Shown here: positions 10,774 through 35,401 of the stretch, in pieces | Layout of the letters: every line of letters starts with the position of its first letter | Numbering within the stretch: the stretch's first letter is position 1 | NCBI GenBank assembly: GCA_012520945.1 | Contig: JAAYNH010000083.1 | Coordinates: 1-40,236, forward strand | Length of the DNA: 40,236 nucleotides | Source: Treponema sp. | GTDB lineage: Bacteria > Spirochaetota > Spirochaetia > Treponematales > Treponemataceae | Direction of reading: 5' to 3' | Position numbers and translations under genes: made by a program | Notes under the pieces: model-generated | What the model saw: the letters and a program-made list of their open reading frames with translations, nothing else | Databases searched by the model: none | Told to the model about the DNA's origin: nothing

Positions 10774-12351
10774 TTCAGAAACCGAACCTGTAATAACAAC
10801 TGCTGATGCTGAAGGAGTAACGGATGTGGCACTTACTTCACCAAAACTTACATTATAATTTGTTCCATTTACGGTCAAATTCATAGTATCTCCGGCAGGA
10901 CCAGAAGTTACATTATAACTTATGCCATTTACGTTGACAACGTATGAACCTCCGTTTGATTCACCTGTAGGTTTTGCAACCACAAAAAAATCAGACTTAA
11001 CAGGGCCTTTTGCTCTTTCAGCAAAAAAGTTCGGGGCCACTTTAGGAAACATTGCATATGTAAGAGTATCTTCATCACTTCCATTTCCACCGGCAGCTTT
11101 TGCTTCTTCAACCATTTTATCCCATTCCATTGGAATAAGGTCGGCAGGACGACATGTAACAACTTCTTCCATATTACTTTGTTTTAATGCTTCTTTTACA
11201 AGATCCGCATTCGGTTTTGCAGGTGTAGCACCGTATTTTCCCACTAACAAGTCGCGAGTTTCTTGCGTAAGTTTATTATATCTACCAAAAAGTACATTAA
11301 AAACAGCTTGTGTACCAACAATTTGTGATGTCGGTGTAACAAGAGGAATATATCCACAGTCTGCTTGAACAATGGCAATTTCTTTAAGAACTTCATCTAT
11401 TTTATCCGAAGCACCTTGTTCTTTCAATTGATTTTCAAGGTTAGAAAGCATTCCACCCGGAACTTGAGAAGCCAAAATACGTGTATCGGCACCCAAAAAT
11501 GAACTTTCAAATTTTTCATATTTTTTACGAACTTCACGGAAATAAGCTGCTATTTCTAAAAGTGCTTTTATATCTAAACCTGTGTCAAATTCCGTACCTC
11601 TAAACATTTCTACTACGGTTTCTGTCGGTGAATGTGATGTTCCCATAGCCATAGATGAAATTACAGTGTCCAAAACATCGGCTCCGGCTTCAGTAGCTTT
11701 TGCCAAAGTTGCAACAGAAAGGCCTGTTGTTGCGTGCGTATGAATTTGAACGGGAATGTCTACTTTTGCTTTTATAGCTTTTACTAAGTCATATGCAACA
11801 TATGGTTTTAACAATCCTGACATATCTTTTATACAAATTGAATCAGCTCCAAATTTTGCATATTCGGCGGCTAATTCAGCATATTTTTCATTTGTATGAT
11901 ATGGAGTAATAGCATATGAAATAGCCATTTGAACATGTTTTCCTGTTTTTTTTGCGGCATCAGCAGCTCGTTTTAAGTTGCGCGGATCATTACATGCATC
12001 AAAAATGCGAAATACACTTACACCGTTTTCTGCGGCTTTTTCAACAAATTTATCTACAACATCATCTGCATAATGACGATAGCCTAAAAGATTTTGTCCG
12101 CGCAAAAGCATCATAATAGGTGTTTTTAATAATTTACTCTTTAATGTTCGAAGGCGTTCCCATGGATCTTCATTCAAAAAGCGAATACATGAATCAAATG
12201 TGGCACCACCCCATGCTTCAAGACTTTCATAACCAATTTTATCCAATTTTTCAAGAACAGGAAGCATATCCGATGTTGTCATGCGAGTTGCATGTAATGA
12301 TTGATGTGCATCACGCAATACAAGGTCTGAAATTTTTACTTTCTTTGCCAT
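9964..12351 (-). CDS. oadA: Oxaloacetate decarboxylase alpha subunit with three biotinyl domains
   Basis: 795 residues from the ATG at 12349-12351, which has a GGAG site 7 nt upstream; a TTG four codons earlier overlaps that site and is rejected. Residues 1-460 are the carboxyltransferase and conserved PYC/OadA domains (LRDAHQSLHATRM, IHTHATTG, MAMGTSHSPTET). After a linker come three tandem biotin carrier domains, each with IESMKMELEIKAT; the acceptor lysines are K559, K660 and K762. Most OadA proteins have one such domain and about 590 residues. Domains 1 and 2 are about 95% identical in DNA. The enzyme couples oxaloacetate decarboxylation to Na+ export with OadB and OadG. Confidence 0.93.
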   Translation of the reverse strand: MAKKVKISDLVLRDAHQSLHATRMTTSDMLPVLEKLDKIGYESLEAWGGATFDSCIRFLNEDPWERLRTLKSKLLKTPIMMLLRGQNLLGYRHYADDVVDKFVEKAAENGVSVFRIFDACNDPRNLKRAADAAKKTGKHVQMAISYAITPYHTNEKYAELAAEYAKFGADSICIKDMSGLLKPYVAYDLVKAIKAKVDIPVQIHTHATTGLSVATLAKATEAGADVLDTVISSMAMGTSHSPTETVVEMFRGTEFDTGLDIKALLEIAAYFREVRKKYEKFESSFLGADTRILASQVPGGMLSNLENQLKEQGASDKIDEVLKEIAIVQADCGYIPLVTPTSQIVGTQAVFNVLFGRYNKLTQETRDLLVGKYGATPAKPNADLVKEALKQSNMEEVVTCRPADLIPMEWDKMVEEAKAAGGNGSDEDTLTYAMFPKVAPNFFAERAKGPVKSDFFVVAKPTGESNGGSYVVNVNGISYNVTSGPAGDTMNLTVNGTNYNVSFGEVSATSVTPSASAVVITGSVSEIKAPVAGTLLKHVAPAGSTVKTGDTIIMIESMKMELEIKATIDGTVNYVVTPGSAITAGQVLGTIGGTVVSAPVATQIKQDIPVAKAAPQSSSVVVGGGTNINAPVAGTLLKYVAPAGSTVKTGDTIIMIESMKMELEIKATVDGTVNYVVAPGSAITAGQVLGTIGGTVSAPVATQTVQETKIEEPAPQAKPKAPSASGGVVINAPVAGTLLKYVVAEGTNVKTGDTIIMIESMKMELEIKATASGSVRFLLPPGSPISSGQPMAELV

Positions 12352-12365
12352 TATTTTCTCCAAAT

Positions 12366-12629
12366 TCAGCTATTTTGTTTTTCTTTAACCGCCGTAGCTA
12401 TAGCAGCAACCACAGCATTATTATCACTTGTAACTGCCACTGAAGCAGATACAGCCTGTGTTTCCGTTTCATTATCATCAAGTTTGAGTGCTTTAATCAT
12501 TTTTGAAGAAAAAGACATAAACCAAATCATAATGATAAGAAAACTAAAAACAACGCCCATGCCCAGCAAAGTTAACAATCCACTTTGACCAAGCATATCA
12601 ACAATTGTCATTCCATTTTCGAATGTCAT
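12366..12629 (-). CDS. oadG: Oxaloacetate decarboxylase gamma subunit
   Basis: 87 residues from the ATG at 12627-12629, which has GGAGG 5 nt upstream; a TTG four codons earlier overlaps the ribosome site and is not used. One membrane helix (GLLTLLGMGVVFSFLIIMIWFM) and an Ala/Val-rich cytoplasmic tail match the small gamma subunit that anchors and assembles the pump. It is first in the oadG-oadA-oadB operon, 14 bp before oadA. Confidence 0.88.
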   Translation of the reverse strand: MTFENGMTIVDMLGQSGLLTLLGMGVVFSFLIIMIWFMSFSSKMIKALKLDDNETETQAVSASVAVTSDNNAVVAAIATAVKEKQNS

Positions 12630-12699
12630 ATAATCCTCCAATGATTAGTTTGATAATAAAAATATCGCTCCAATCATTTAAATATACATAATCCTTTCC

Positions 12700-12728
12700 A
12701 TTGTACTAAAAAAAAAAATTAATGTCTA
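12700..12728 (-). promoter_or_regulatory. Sigma70-type promoter of the oad operon
   Basis: Minus strand TAGACA (12723-12728), 17-nt spacer with an 11-T run, TACAAT (12700-12705). The leader to oadG is about 64 nt and holds a 7-bp AATGATT/AATCATT inverted repeat just before the Shine-Dalgarno site. Confidence 0.55.
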
Positions 12729-12751
12729 TGAAACGCAACTTTACAATGAAC

Positions 12752-12792
12752 AAAAAAACACCTTAAAAAGCTTAATATTCTTTCTAAGGTGT
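12752..12792 (-). terminator. Terminator after the pectinesterase gene
   Basis: On the minus strand an 8-bp stem (ACACCTTA/TAAGGTGT, 12758-12765 with 12785-12792) followed by a run of T. Confidence 0.65.
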
Positions 12793-12815
12793 CTTTTAGC
12801 ATAAACTATATTTTA

Positions 12816-14816
12816 TCAGTATTTAATTTTAGGCTTGAAACCCAAAACATTTTGTGTTTTATCATAGAAAGATGCTTGTGCGGCAGTAAGCCACTTGCGT
12901 GTTGCAGTTTCCGCTTGCAAAGCACCTTCTCCAGTACAACCATATTCACGGAAAAATGCTTTTTCTGCCGTATTTACATTGTCCCAATCTTTCCAACCAA
13001 TATCATCTAAGTGAGAACCTAATTCACAACGCAAATAAACGGTTTTTGCTTGATTATCACCACCATTGGAACCGCCTGTCCATGCACCGCGTCCTAAGAA
13101 TACTTTTTTGTCGGTAATATTTGCATCTCCATTAACTAAACAATCACGGAAAACATATCCGTTTGCATTTAAGCTATTTGCCATTGCAGAGTCGGCAGGA
13201 GCTGTGGCAGTAATATAACCGCCGTTTTTATAAAAAATTGAATAGATATGGCATTTGTCAAACAAAACAGTAGCACCACCACAAATAAAATCAACTTCTC
13301 CTTCAATATAACAGTTTTCAAAAAGAATGCGTCCACTTCGCAAATACATTGTATCTTGTTGTCCTAAGAAAATGCAGTTTTTAATATATCCTTCCGTAAC
13401 GCCTTTAAGTGCTAAGGCAATTGAACGACGTTCCGTACTTTTCCAAGTTGCATTCCACTCAGCACCTTTATTATAGAAGGTAATATTTTCCGCACTAAAA
13501 GATGCACCCGGAACTGCTAGTGCCGCTTTTGAAGGATCGGATGCACCGGGAGTTGTATTTTCAGAAGATTGAAGTAAATTTACTTCAACAAGCAAGTTAC
13601 CGTCTATATTTCCAAAGTCTGCTTCATATCCGTAAATAATTGTATTTGCAGGATTTTCACCAACTAATTTTAAGCCTGGCTTTTTAATAACAAGTTTTTC
13701 ACGGTAAATACCCGGTTTAATATAAATTGTACTTCCCGGAGAAGCTACTTCAACCGCGTCTGCAACGCTTTTAAATTGTCCGCCATTACCAACAACTAAT
13801 GCTTTTTTTATTTTTGCATTATTCAATGGGAATTTCGGATTACGCACAACTTTCTCAACTTTTGCCTTGCTAAATGGCAACGAATCTAAATTAAGCATAC
13901 CATTTTCAATAAATGCAGGATCTTTATAATCAGCTGCAACTTCAGGAATTCCGTCCGAAACAAGCATATTAATTCCAACAGGTTTTGCAGCAGGTTTCAA
14001 GGATTTTGGAGCAGGATCATTAATCGTAACAGGCATTGAAACAATATCAAATCCTGCTTTTTTACCGATTTCTTCCAATGTCATACCTGAAACATCTTCA
14101 TCTTCAATAAGAAGAAAATATGAATAGCGTGCAAAACCGTTTGTACTTCCATCGTTTTCACCAAATAAAAAATAATGACCATTGCCCGTAATAAGTTCAG
14201 GATTATATCCTTTTTTACGAATGTCAACGGTTTTTTTTGCATATGCTTTAGTTTGATGACGTAAAACTCCGTCAATATAGCAAGATGCAGTCATATCACG
14301 ACCTTTATTGTCCACTGTTTCAAAAACCAATCGATAATCGCGCCATTCTGAAACGATATCCTCACTTGTGCCTTCAGATGTTCGTAAATTTGTTTGACCG
14401 GTTGAACCTTTAATTTGATTTGTTTGATTATGGCGCAACACAGATTGATAATTATTGCGTTGCCAACATGCCCACAAAATTCCAAAAGGAGTTAAACCAT
14501 TATCAGGAATGAGAGAACCTTTTGCTTTAAAAATAAAGGTAATTCTATTCGCATCTTCTTTTACGGGAATCATAAAAGCCTCGGGCTTATTATCACGCGT
14601 ATCAAGCTTTAATGCTTTTTTACCGTTTGTCGTATTGTCAACAAAACTAACATGATTGTCAAAGTTCGGTGTTAAAGTCCAACCGAATTTTTCCATATCA
14701 ACTCTAGGATTTGTTGCGTCTCTTTCACCGGGAACATAAAGTTTCCAATTGTTTGGAATGGAAAAAACATTAGTTATTAATGCTAAACAAAATAGAATAA
14801 AAAGAATCTTTTTCAA
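12816..14816 (-). CDS. Secreted pectinesterase with N-terminal jelly-roll-like domain
   Basis: 666 residues if the TTG at 14814-14816 is the start: it gives a clean signal peptide (KKILFILFCLALITNVFS) and has GGAGGAG just upstream; the ATG four codons earlier overlaps that site. Residues about 20-250 resemble a concanavalin-like or carbohydrate-binding sandwich (inference). From about residue 340 the carbohydrate esterase 8 beta-helix carries GQQDTMYL, GEVDFICGGA and LGRGAW, holding the catalytic Gln, two Asp and Arg. It would de-esterify dietary pectin outside the cytoplasm. It stands alone between its terminator and the rluA-type gene. Confidence 0.9.
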   Translation of the reverse strand: MKKILFILFCLALITNVFSIPNNWKLYVPGERDATNPRVDMEKFGWTLTPNFDNHVSFVDNTTNGKKALKLDTRDNKPEAFMIPVKEDANRITFIFKAKGSLIPDNGLTPFGILWACWQRNNYQSVLRHNQTNQIKGSTGQTNLRTSEGTSEDIVSEWRDYRLVFETVDNKGRDMTASCYIDGVLRHQTKAYAKKTVDIRKKGYNPELITGNGHYFLFGENDGSTNGFARYSYFLLIEDEDVSGMTLEEIGKKAGFDIVSMPVTINDPAPKSLKPAAKPVGINMLVSDGIPEVAADYKDPAFIENGMLNLDSLPFSKAKVEKVVRNPKFPLNNAKIKKALVVGNGGQFKSVADAVEVASPGSTIYIKPGIYREKLVIKKPGLKLVGENPANTIIYGYEADFGNIDGNLLVEVNLLQSSENTTPGASDPSKAALAVPGASFSAENITFYNKGAEWNATWKSTERRSIALALKGVTEGYIKNCIFLGQQDTMYLRSGRILFENCYIEGEVDFICGGATVLFDKCHIYSIFYKNGGYITATAPADSAMANSLNANGYVFRDCLVNGDANITDKKVFLGRGAWTGGSNGGDNQAKTVYLRCELGSHLDDIGWKDWDNVNTAEKAFFREYGCTGEGALQAETATRKWLTAAQASFYDKTQNVLGFKPKIKY

Positions 14817-24220: not shown

Positions 24221-24262
24221 AAAAAAAGACTGTACTACAGGAGGATTATTCAGTACAGTCTT
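24221..24262 (-). terminator. Terminator of the sigma factor gene
   Basis: A perfect 11-bp stem (24226-24236 with 24252-24262), 15-nt loop, then seven T on the minus strand. Confidence 0.85.
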
Positions 24263-24297
24263 CTAAAACTCTCAATATTGCCGACTTTTTATTATGG

Positions 24298-25119
24298 CTA
24301 TGCGGTTGCATTTTTTTTCTGTTTGATTGCCGCACGCAATCGTAAAATGGCTCTTATTTCCATTTGACGTACAGTTTCAGAAGAAACACCTAGCATTTCT
24401 CCAACTTGGCGTAATGTTTTATTTTTCTCGTCATAATTAAAATTATATCGATAATATAAAACTTCTTTTTCCATATGAGGTAATTCATTTAATAAATTTG
24501 CCACTTCCTTCCTTGATTCTTCAGCTAATACATATTCTTCCGGAGTCAATGTTTCATCAGGAATTAGATCACTAATTGTTGCAGCGGATGAATCGCCAAC
24601 GGGACAATCCAAACTAGAAACTGTGTATGAATAAGTTAATGCTTCATTAATCTCATCCGGCATAACTCCAAGATAAGTAGCCATTTCTTCAACATAAGGC
24701 TCACGACAATTTTTTTCTAAAAGCACTTCACGGGCATTTTTTATGCGACGTAACAAAGCTTCTTTTCTATAAGGTATGGTAATAATATTATGCTTGTTTC
24801 GTACATAACGCAAAATTGCCTGTGTAATCCATAAATATGCATATGTTGAAAAACGTGTGTTAAAAGAAGCTCGATATCTTGAAGCGGCTGTTATTAAACC
24901 GATGTTTCCTTCTTGAATTAAATCCATAAATGAAATTTTAAAGCTATTATATTTTTTTGCAGCACTAATTACTAATCGCAAATTACTTTGTACAAGTTTT
25001 TTTTCAGCATTTTTATCGCCGGATTCACTTCTTTTAGCAAGTTCAATTTCTTCTTCTGCTGTCAAAAGCGGATAGGATTTTACTTGATTAATATAACTAT
25101 TAAAAAGTTCTTTTTCCAT
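24298..25119 (-). CDS. Secondary sigma70-family factor (RpoS/RpoD-like, group 2)
   Basis: 273 residues, too short for the housekeeping factor. Region 1.2 (LFNSYINQVKSYPLLTAEEE), region 2 (FMDLIQEGNIGLITAASRY, FSTYAYLWITQAILRYVR), region 3 (EPYVEEMATYLGV) and region 4 (LRQVGEMLGVSSETVRQME) are all intact; region 1.1 is absent. GAGG lies 7 nt before the ATG. The gene is preceded by a sequence matching the sigma54 consensus, so it is probably switched on by RpoN and an enhancer-binding protein. A perfect terminator follows. Which genes it controls is unknown. Confidence 0.9.
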   Translation of the reverse strand: MEKELFNSYINQVKSYPLLTAEEEIELAKRSESGDKNAEKKLVQSNLRLVISAAKKYNSFKISFMDLIQEGNIGLITAASRYRASFNTRFSTYAYLWITQAILRYVRNKHNIITIPYRKEALLRRIKNAREVLLEKNCREPYVEEMATYLGVMPDEINEALTYSYTVSSLDCPVGDSSAATISDLIPDETLTPEEYVLAEESRKEVANLLNELPHMEKEVLYYRYNFNYDEKNKTLRQVGEMLGVSSETVRQMEIRAILRLRAAIKQKKNATA

Positions 25120-25141
25120 TGTATTACCTCAGTTATATTAA

Positions 25142-25158
25142 AGCAAAAATCGTGCCAA
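25142..25158 (-). promoter_or_regulatory. Sigma54 (-24/-12) promoter of the secondary sigma factor
   Basis: Minus strand TTGGCAC, five nt, TTGCT: the core TGGCAC-N5-TTGC matches the RpoN consensus completely, with the GG and GC pairs 10 nt apart as required. The start point would fall near 25132, giving a leader of about 13 nt that begins with the Shine-Dalgarno site. Confidence 0.75.
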
Positions 25159-25257: not shown

Positions 25258-25296
25258 AAAAAAAAATCTATCTGTATACATTTTTATACAGATAGA
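25258..25296 (-). terminator. Terminator of the outer-membrane-like gene
   Basis: A perfect 12-bp stem (25267-25278 with 25285-25296), 6-nt loop, nine T on the minus strand. It insulates the sigma factor promoter from the upstream gene. Confidence 0.85.
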
Positions 25297-25362
25297 CTAA
25301 TACAAATCTATACATTCAGATTTTTGACAATTTTGACATATTTAACAAAATCTACAAAAATT

Positions 25363-26325
25363 TTAGAACTTAACCTCATAACTAAATGCTATACGATTAA
25401 AGCACCATTCACGGCTAGCAAATGTTTTATTATATGCACTTTCGTTTTCTGCAATTGCTTCAGTATAAGAACGTCTGCTTTTAAAACGTGCCTGAATTGT
25501 CAATTGATGCATTTTATTAAATTTCAAAATTGCAACAGGGCTCAAAGCTATTTCCATAAAAGCCGGATTCCAGTTTTCATAACGTGTTGCAAAATTACCG
25601 CCTCCTAAATATCCTTCCAGCTCACACTGTAAGGCTACTGTTTGCAAAAGTAAAGGCATTTGGTAACCTAGTAAAAATGATGAATAATATTTCCAGCCAT
25701 TACAATAATCGGCTGTTCCCTGCCATTTCCAAATTTCACCGTCAGGAGCACTTGTTAGTCTTTGATAAAATACTTTATAGGAAGCTAACATTACAACGTG
25801 AGTCCAATCACCCGGCACAATGGCACCTATGTCAAATTGGAACAATGAATCGAACCAAAATTGCATCATCCATGTTTGAAAAGGATTTGTGGAGGTAAAT
25901 TTTTTTGTTGTGTCGTTATAAATTGCACTTCCTTGAACATTAAGTGGAGCAAAATCCCAACCTGTTCCAATTTTTCCGCCGGCTGTAAAAACCAAAAAAG
26001 CGATGGGTGTAAAATTCGCCTGAAAGATTGGCATAACTGAAACGGGTGATAGTTCAAATGCTGCATTTAATTTTAAATTATTGTCTTTAACTAATGGATT
26101 TGTGCCAAATGGTGTAGGTATGGTATAAAAATAATTTCCTGTTACACGTGCTTCAAGAGCAGAAAAAGGGCCGTTAATAAAACTAAAGTGTGTATTATTT
26201 ACATTGATTTTACTTTCGGATCTTGGATAATATGCCAAATCAGTAACAACGGAAAAGGAGTGTGATTTTGCATAAACGCCACTAATAACAAGCAATAATA
26301 ACAAAAAACATATAATCTTTTTCAT
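25363..26325 (-). CDS. Putative outer-membrane beta-barrel protein
   Basis: 320 residues. KKIICFLLLLLVISGVYAKS is a signal peptide with cleavage near residue 19. The rest alternates short amphipathic beta segments rich in aromatic residues (Trp, Tyr, Phe) with turns and ends in a beta strand with C-terminal Phe (AFSYEVKF), as in outer-membrane barrels. I cannot name the family. A TTGTCA-17-TATAAT promoter ends 7 nt before the ATG and no ribosome site is present; a strong terminator follows. Single-gene unit. Confidence 0.65.
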   Translation of the reverse strand: MKKIICFLLLLLVISGVYAKSHSFSVVTDLAYYPRSESKINVNNTHFSFINGPFSALEARVTGNYFYTIPTPFGTNPLVKDNNLKLNAAFELSPVSVMPIFQANFTPIAFLVFTAGGKIGTGWDFAPLNVQGSAIYNDTTKKFTSTNPFQTWMMQFWFDSLFQFDIGAIVPGDWTHVVMLASYKVFYQRLTSAPDGEIWKWQGTADYCNGWKYYSSFLLGYQMPLLLQTVALQCELEGYLGGGNFATRYENWNPAFMEIALSPVAILKFNKMHQLTIQARFKSRRSYTEAIAENESAYNKTFASREWCFNRIAFSYEVKF

Positions 26326-33346: not shown

Positions 33347-35401
33347 ATGAAACTTACCATCGCTTTAATAGGTAACCAAAACTGTGGTAAATCCACACTT
33401 TTTAATCAATTAACCGGAAGCAAACAGCATGTTGGAAACTTTCCCGGTGTTACCGTTGAAAAAAAAAGCGGTTTAATAAAACATCAGTTTGTGCATCCAC
33501 AAGATAATATTCACAAAATTCAAGTTGAATTAGTGGATTTACCGGGCATATATTCTCTTTCGCCCTATACACCTGAAGAAATTCTTACGCGCGATTTTCT
33601 CATAAATGAAAAAATTGATGCGGTAATTAATATTGTAGATGCCACAAATCTTGAGCGGAATTTATATTTAACATTACAACTAATGGAAATGCAACTGCCT
33701 ATGGTTCTAGCACTAAATATGATGGATGAAGTACTAAATGCCGGTAATTCCATTAATGTAGAAAAATTATCTAGCATGCTAGGCATTGATGTAGTTCCCA
33801 TTGTGGCAAACAAAGGAGATGGCATAACGGAATTAAGCCAAATTACAATTGAAAATGCGCTAAAAAACAAAGTACCTAGTAAAACGGATTTTTGTGAAGT
33901 AGGAAGTGCTTACCACAAAGCAATTCATGCCATAGCTCATTTAATTGAAAATAATGCACAAAAAGCAAAAATCCCTTTACGTTTTGCCGCAACAAAGTTA
34001 GTTGAAGGAGATGAAATAATTTTAAAAAAATTATCATTAAACAAAAATGAAACGGATATTTTAGAACATATTACAACAGAAATGGAATCGGAATTAGAAA
34101 CCGACCGCGAAGCTGCATTAGCAGACATGAGATATGCATTTATTGAAAAATGTACAAAATTAGCTGTAAATAAAGTTAGTGAAACAAAGGAACAACTTCG
34201 TTCCGTAAAAATTGACAAGGTTTTGACACATCGTATTTTTTCCATTCCAATTTTTATTGCAATCATGGCGATAATTTTTTATCTGACCTTTAATATAATC
34301 GGTGGCACTTTAAGTGATTGGCTTACAATTATTATTGACACTTTCACTGCATTTGTCGACAATGCTTTAACAAAAATAAATCTTGCTCCTCCTGTACACT
34401 CACTCATAATAAACGGTATTTTTGCCGGAGTCGGAAGTGTTTTATCTTTTTTACCTTTTATTATAGTATTGTTTTTTTTCTTATCTCTTTTAGAAGATTC
34501 AGGATATATGGCACGCATTGCTTTTGTGATGGACGGTTTTTTGCGTAAAATAGGACTTTCGGGCAAGTCCATTGTTCCAATGCTCATAGGCTTTGGTTGT
34601 TCCGTGCCTGCAATTATGGCAACACGTACATTAAATAGTCGTCGCGACAAACGCCTTACAATTTTTATTACTCCGTTTATGTCTTGTAGTGCAAAACTGC
34701 CTGTTTATGCATTATTATCTGCGGCTTTTTTTCCGGGCAAAGAAGTAATTGTTATGATATGTTTGTATCTTGGCGGAATAATCGTTGCAATTTTGTCTGC
34801 ACTTTTGTTGAAAAAAACCATATTTACAGGTAAACCCATTCCTTTTGTAATGGAACTTCCCGCATATAGAATGCCCACTGCTAAAACTTTAGCACTTCAT
34901 CTTTGGGAAAAAGCTCGCGACTTTTTAAAAAAAGCATTTACTGTAATTTTTATGGCAACGATTATTATTTGGTTTTTGCAAACTTTTAATTTCCGCTTTG
35001 AGATGATAGAAGATTCCGGCACAAGTATTTTAGCCGCCTTTGGTAAAGTTATCTCTCCCGTATTCAAACCTCTAGGATTCGATGACTGGAGACTCTCCAC
35101 CGCACTTATCACAGGACTTTCTGCGAAAGAAGTAGTCGTAAGTACACTAGCTGTTTTAACAGGAACAGGGGCGGAATTATCTGGAAGTGCAGGGTTGCAA
35201 AATGCTTTATCATCAATGATGTCTCCTCAAGCAGCTCTTGCATATTTAGTTTTTATTTTATTATATATGCCTTGCGTTGCCACATTAGCGGTAACTAAGC
35301 GCGAACTTGGCACAAAGCTTGCTATTTTTGCAGTAACTTTTCAAACAGTTACTGCATGGATTGTTGCATTCTTTGTGCACCTTGTCGCAAATTTTTTTTA
35401 G
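33347..35401 (+). CDS. feoB: Ferrous iron transporter FeoB
   Basis: 684 residues from the ATG at 33347 (MKLTIALIGNQNCGKSTLFN); GGAG lies 6 nt upstream, and a GTG four codons earlier overlaps that site. N-terminal G domain: GNQNCGKST (G1), VGNFPGVTVE (G2), DLPGIYSLSPY (G3), NMMDE (G4). A helical spacer follows, then the membrane part with two Gate-type segments (GFGCSVPAIMATRT and TGLSAKEVVVSTLAVL). It imports Fe2+ across the inner membrane. Ends 5 bp from the convergent DUF4340 gene. Confidence 0.96.
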   Translation: MKLTIALIGNQNCGKSTLFNQLTGSKQHVGNFPGVTVEKKSGLIKHQFVHPQDNIHKIQVELVDLPGIYSLSPYTPEEILTRDFLINEKIDAVINIVDATNLERNLYLTLQLMEMQLPMVLALNMMDEVLNAGNSINVEKLSSMLGIDVVPIVANKGDGITELSQITIENALKNKVPSKTDFCEVGSAYHKAIHAIAHLIENNAQKAKIPLRFAATKLVEGDEIILKKLSLNKNETDILEHITTEMESELETDREAALADMRYAFIEKCTKLAVNKVSETKEQLRSVKIDKVLTHRIFSIPIFIAIMAIIFYLTFNIIGGTLSDWLTIIIDTFTAFVDNALTKINLAPPVHSLIINGIFAGVGSVLSFLPFIIVLFFFLSLLEDSGYMARIAFVMDGFLRKIGLSGKSIVPMLIGFGCSVPAIMATRTLNSRRDKRLTIFITPFMSCSAKLPVYALLSAAFFPGKEVIVMICLYLGGIIVAILSALLLKKTIFTGKPIPFVMELPAYRMPTAKTLALHLWEKARDFLKKAFTVIFMATIIIWFLQTFNFRFEMIEDSGTSILAAFGKVISPVFKPLGFDDWRLSTALITGLSAKEVVVSTLAVLTGTGAELSGSAGLQNALSSMMSPQAALAYLVFILLYMPCVATLAVTKRELGTKLAIFAVTFQTVTAWIVAFFVHLVANFF

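Follow-up and report, generated by a model that had tools for sequence, protein, structure and literature searches.

A conserved sigma54-type promoter and an enhancer-like palindrome precede a group-2 sigma factor gene in Treponema

Introduction

Virulence in Borrelia is governed centrally by the RpoN-RpoS cascade, which is commonly portrayed as an acquisition particular to that genus. To our knowledge, hardly anything has been learned about how Treponema pallidum controls its genes. In B. burgdorferi RpoS requires Rrp2 (PMC4014564); the rpoS transcription start has been mapped downstream of a -24/-12 element, where Rrp2 acts without an enhancer (PMC1976401). A 2019 study described RpoN as "appropriated" by Borrelia (PMC6719511). 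Sigma54 control of an alternative sigma factor is also described for QseE/QseF-rpoE of E. coli, where a sigma54 promoter is combined with upstream activating sites (PMC6075780). In the literature searched, from which subscription journals were largely absent, we found no treponeme sigma factor described as being under sigma54 control, and a 2025 survey of sigma54 regulons mentions neither treponemes nor Borrelia by name.

Here we analyse a window of 40,236 nt, the whole stretch of DNA under study (positions 1 to 40,236 of contig JAAYNH010000083.1, assembly GCA_012520945.1, Treponema sp.). Judged from its sequence, the treponeme system resembles the Borrelia cascade and differs from it in its predicted use of enhancers and its two branches. 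As in the Rrp2-RpoN-RpoS system of B. burgdorferi, a -24/-12 element immediately precedes a group-2 sigma gene, and rpoN and an Rrp2-type activator are present. Unlike Borrelia rpoS, which is enhancer-independent (PMC1976401), the treponeme promoter is accompanied by a conserved enhancer-like palindrome, for which there is no functional proof; also unlike Borrelia, the treponeme encodes three activators, and a second sigma gene, a paralog, stands behind a sigma54 promoter of its own. E. coli rpoE likewise has a sigma54 promoter with upstream sites (PMC6075780); the E. coli system differs in that its product is the ECF factor sigma24, its activator is unrelated and it is gamma-proteobacterial.

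Results

A one-gene sigma unit

The sequence-only reading had named the product a group-2 sigma factor, and Pfam agrees: the 273-aa protein encoded at 24298-25119 (minus strand) has sigma70-family regions 1.2, 2, 3 and 4 and lacks region 1.1 and the long N-terminal part of RpoD. The RpoD of the source genome is a separate frame of 613 aa. Like proteobacterial RpoS (sigma38) the window sigma is a group-2 member of the sigma70 family, but it scores below the cut-off of the NCBIfam model rpoS_proteo (199 vs 378.7 bits) and so is not RpoS by NCBIfam membership.

Sigma70 uses a pair of tryptophans in region 2.4 for -10 opening. Alignment places STYAYLWITQ of the window sigma against STYATWWIRQ of sigma70, so that the first tryptophan of the two is missing (YLW vs WW). 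Within the sub-clade of the window sigma this position is variable, being occupied by A, T or L. The change in region 2.4 suggests an altered promoter specificity, a prediction from the alignment.

Upstream, at 25363-26325 on the same strand, the list of open reading frames gives an exported, outer-membrane or porin-like protein, an assignment made from the appearance of its sequence only. Terminator-like hairpins stand on both sides of the sigma gene, at 24224-24264 on its 3' side (minus strand; -16.0 kcal/mol, z -3.5, followed by a T-run) and at 25265-25298 upstream; we therefore treat the gene as a one-gene unit.

The -24/-12 element

The promoter TTGGCACGATTTTTGCT occupies 25142-25158 on the minus strand. 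Read 5' to 3', T25158 is followed by TGGCACGATTTTTGCT (25157-25142), giving TTGGCAC-N5-TTGCT; the GG of -25/-24 falls at 25156-25155 and the GC of -13/-12 at 25144-25143, an exact match to consensus with the correct spacing. The minus-strand sequence AGTTGGCACGATTTTTGCTTTAATATAACTGAGGTAATACAATG closes with the start codon at 25119. The complete TGGCAC-N5-TTGC(T) element reported earlier before the ATG is thus present and close to it, but at a distance of 22 nt by our count, not 23. Transcription is predicted from the position of the GC doublet to start at 25131/25130, about 12 nt past the C of -12; the start is unmapped. It falls on the Shine-Dalgarno sequence GAGG (25127-25130, minus strand), at the extreme 5' end of the predicted leader, which bears out the earlier remark that the leader begins at this site.

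A strict pattern, TGGCAYNNNNNTTGCW, matched the 2.19-Mb genome 12 times, compared with 2 matches for its reversed control. Eight of these lie within genes and four are intergenic, just upstream of a gene. The four intergenic sites precede the window sigma gene, a second sigma gene (contig C106), a gene for the small heat-shock protein Hsp20 (C46) and a gene for a 283-aa protein (C55); of the source genome's four strict sigma54 promoters, two thus stand before sigma factor genes. The window contains one other exact match, at 35307-35323 (plus strand), which lies inside feoB in frame with the coding sequence and was dismissed as chance. Relaxed -24/-12 patterns added matches that were mostly coding and occurred at background frequency.

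Conservation of the promoter

Homologs of the window sigma (E ≤ 1e-40) were present in 134 of 145 genomes of the family Treponemataceae. Upstream DNA was read at 90 loci, 71 in the group of the window sigma and 19 in that of the paralog; the own-genome copy (L166) and the copy of a T. pallidum-like genome (L167) bring the paralog set to 21. The labels T. pallidum-like (G019) and Borrelia-like (G333) rest on gene positions, among other things. A -24/-12 element was found within 260 nt upstream of 70 of the 71 window-group orthologs and 20 of the 21 paralogs, counts that tolerate a single relaxed position and accept TAGCA, the variant found in genus g16. A tighter rule, with the element within 150 nt, was met at 78 of the 90 loci. 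Controls for this rule gave nothing for the reversed string or the opposite strand; neighbouring DNA totalling 390,874 nt held 2 matches, a background of about 0.0008 per 150 nt. The proteins share no more than 31–54% identity with the window sigma, and the flanking DNA does not align.

Outside Treponemataceae, the element precedes 37 of 47 homologs in the phylum, among them three Borrelia-like rpoS genes, which are a known positive control. Seven of the ten homologs without it belong, in the tree, to a single subgroup of paralogs that lies outside the class. The T. pallidum-like homolog is also preceded by the element; the upstream regions of rpoD and fliA contain none. rpoN was found in all 20 spirochaete genomes tested. 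These data indicate that the predicted promoter wiring is common to nearly the whole class Spirochaetia, including commensal, free-living and T. pallidum-like lineages. In a contig profile scan with the sigma alignment, most of what came back were sigma factors from other phyla, Firmicutes among them, with few named spirochaetes.

In a tree rooted with rpoD the homologs form two clades (SH-aLRT 98 and 95). One holds the window sigma together with Borrelia-like RpoS; in the other are the paralog from the source genome and the sigma of the T. pallidum-like genome. The placement of Borrelia RpoS is tentative, since Borrelia has a long branch and its shift to the other clade was not rejected (AU p = 0.357).

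A palindrome inside the upstream hairpin

The hairpin at 25265-25298 (minus strand) folds at -16.3 kcal/mol (z -5.3) and carries a T-tract. It encloses the perfect palindrome CTGTATA-AAAATG-TATACAG (25272-25291, minus strand; 14/14), 114 bp upstream of -24 and the sole match in the genome to CTGTATA-N6-TATACAG with at most one mismatch.

Inverted repeats upstream of the elements were searched in pooled loci and then per group. At window-type loci the dyads GTATA-N6-TATAC and TGTAT-N8-ATACA occurred at 22 and 19 of 70 loci, with a shuffle maximum of 3. The full palindrome reached at least 11/14 at 53 of 70 Treponemataceae orthologs (1.9% in shuffles; 1 of 541 tiles of other real DNA) and at least 12/14 at 37 of 70 (none in shuffles, 0 of 541 tiles); the remaining 17 orthologs score under 11/14. 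The palindrome was noticed and scored on the same loci. In a set from other families, itself only partly independent, 12 of 29 loci reached at least 11/14 (shuffles 1.2%). Perfect or near-perfect palindromes with a -24/-12 element at most 300 bp downstream, or at the sigma gene, numbered five, four of them at the same gene in other genomes. The palindrome is absent from other sigma54 targets (paralog 0/20, 283-aa gene 0/20, Hsp20 1/25), and upstream DNA of Borrelia-like rpoS scores just 8–9 of 14.

Across orthologs the palindrome lies 80–220 bp upstream of -24, and at 52 of 70 loci it is present at least twice with a score of 10 or more; this position and the tandem copies are as expected of an enhancer. 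Extended arms followed by a T-run are no general feature of the palindromes at orthologous loci, so that what is conserved is the palindrome and not the hairpin. The sequence-only reading had seen here a strong terminator insulating the sigma gene. Hairpin and T-run are real, and the structure probably does also terminate the gene at 25363-26325, but with a perfect conserved palindrome inside it insulation can be at most half its role. Without binding data, we read the hairpin as also, or mainly, a putative enhancer.

A second predicted sigma54 circuit

Because the window consensus fails at the promoters of the paralog, Hsp20 and the 283-aa protein, a second consensus was sought, and was found for the first two: TGTATC-N5-GATACA or, in another form, TGTRTCA-N3-TGAYACA, upstream of both genes. 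It reached at least 10/12 at 11 of 20 paralog and 13 of 25 Hsp20 loci, where shuffling predicted 0.2 and 0.1; the rate in real DNA was about 1.5% per 250-nt tile. Two parallel enhancer-controlled circuits leading from sigma54 to a sigma70-family factor thus seem to exist in treponemes, as far as promoter and palindrome sequences can tell. In the T. pallidum-like genome the element stands before the sigma gene and neither palindrome is present there.

The small heat-shock gene Hsp20 (L181, G000:C46:20220-20755; orthologs L341-L370) is itself a conserved sigma54 target that has the putative enhancer TGTRTCA-N3-TGAYACA in common with the sigma paralog. A script counted the element at 25 of 30 Hsp20 ortholog loci; it missed the own copy solely through start-codon choice. 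The 283-aa protein (L178:4060-4911, G000:C55, minus strand) is conserved in 91 of 140 family genomes, has no Pfam match and is preceded by a sigma54 element in most of the orthologs read. A region-2-like motif raised the idea of a cryptic sigma factor, which gained no support: profile comparison gave probabilities of 28% and 7%, and neither a PDB profile search nor Pfam backed it.

Two further sites were noted in relatives. The T. pallidum-like genome has a perfect sigma54 element (L215, G019:C1:1136989-1137005, minus strand) 24 nt before a Dps/ferritin-like gene. In G042, two identical divergent elements (TTGGCATAAAAATTGCT; L222, G042:C1:2547370-2548015) lie between permease-like and dehydratase-like genes.

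RpoN and candidate activators

The source genome encodes an intact RpoN of 481 aa, with its DNA-binding domain and the RpoN box SRRTVAKYR. Three proteins have strong sigma54-activator domains: a GAF-AAA+-HTH protein (L177:2338-3855); an AtoC-type response regulator (REC-AAA+-HTH) with its histidine kinase upstream (L178:11799-14395, comprising 11799-12998 and 13046-14395); and a protein with the sigma54-interaction domain and no DNA-binding domain (L179:2872-4068, G000:C25). Proteins similar to the last occur in some relatives and are missing in others (G005).

The AtoC-type pair has the make-up of an Rrp2-type activator, namely REC-AAA+-HTH with an adjacent histidine kinase. An AtoC-type protein is present in all treponemes examined, and that of the source genome is 56% identical to the sole activator found in the Borrelia-like genome. 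True orthologs of the GAF-type protein, with a conserved DNA-binding helix, were found in five genomes (G000, G014, G009, G005 and G301), all of which carry the window-type sigma and the palindrome. It was not found in the T. pallidum-like genome, and the activators retrieved for the Borrelia-like genome and for G322 did not include it. In G042, although a window-type sigma is lacking, a diverged relative persists. This distribution suggests the GAF protein as best candidate for the window enhancer and the AtoC/Rrp2-type protein as candidate for the second circuit. Both assignments are inferences from few genomes, without binding data.

Discussion

The earlier reading had proposed a two-step sigma cascade like that of Borrelia, to be checked by looking for rpoN, sigma54 activators and conservation of the element at orthologous treponeme loci. 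All three were found, and an intact rpoN with the element at 70 of 71 orthologs supports the proposal well at the level of sequence; expression and dependence on rpoN remain inferred. We consider it highly probable that a sigma54 promoter, an enhancer and an activator together drive the window sigma, and that a second such circuit exists. Sigma54-RNA polymerase would transcribe the one-gene unit 24298-25119 from 25142-25158. An enhancer-binding protein of the NtrC/AAA+ kind would bind the palindrome at 25272-25291, about 115 bp upstream, loop to the promoter and open it through ATP hydrolysis; the resulting group-2 sigma would redirect RNA polymerase to a regulon of its own. As the palindrome sits inside the hairpin that probably terminates the upstream gene, one DNA segment may serve two roles. 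In parallel, the paralogous sigma and Hsp20 would be read from their own sigma54 promoters, which in relatives lie behind TGTRTCA-N3-TGAYACA. Promoter, putative enhancer, their conservation and the intact rpoN and activators can be read directly in the DNA, and from them we infer promoter activity, looping and the choice of activator.

It is hardly credible that the -24/-12 match is accidental and the gene driven by a sigma70 promoter. The genome is AT-rich and exact matches do fall inside genes (8 of 12), yet the element is kept at nearly all orthologs and elsewhere in the phylum, and the DNA before the gene showed no sigma70-like site on the gene's strand. If the sigma54 promoter is real, the palindrome might still be nothing more than the upstream gene's terminator, with activation occurring from solution as at Borrelia rpoS. 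The hairpin and T-run fold well and would suit a terminator for 25363-26325; Rrp2 activates rpoS enhancer-independently in Borrelia (PMC1976401), and the genome has an Rrp2-type activator. We nevertheless think this unlikely, given that the palindrome recurs upstream of -24 in most orthologs and in this ortholog group only, that it is often tandem, and that extended arms and a T-run are mostly missing. A palindrome does not by itself name its protein, and with no activator binding shown it could be the operator of some other regulator, such as a repressor. This too we hold to be quite unlikely: enhancers would be expected at this spacing, in tandem and in the company of -24/-12 elements, and a different palindrome takes the same place at the sigma54 promoters of the paralog and Hsp20. 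Our preferred reading remains an enhancer-dependent sigma54 promoter.

With somewhat more confidence than doubt, we propose that sigma54 control of group-2 sigma factors is ancestral in Spirochaetia. It would have had two enhancer-specific branches, one pairing CTGTATA-N6-TATACAG with the GAF activator, the other pairing TGTRTCA-N3-TGAYACA with the AtoC/Rrp2-type activator and serving the second sigma and Hsp20; what is left in Borrelia and at the T. pallidum homolog would be reduced remnants whose enhancers have been lost. The enhancer-independent circuit of Borrelia is probably a reduced form. A promoter known until now mainly from the Lyme disease spirochaete is now seen across nearly the whole class, and with concrete enhancer sequences and candidate activators in hand, the origin of enhancer-independent activation in Borrelia becomes testable.
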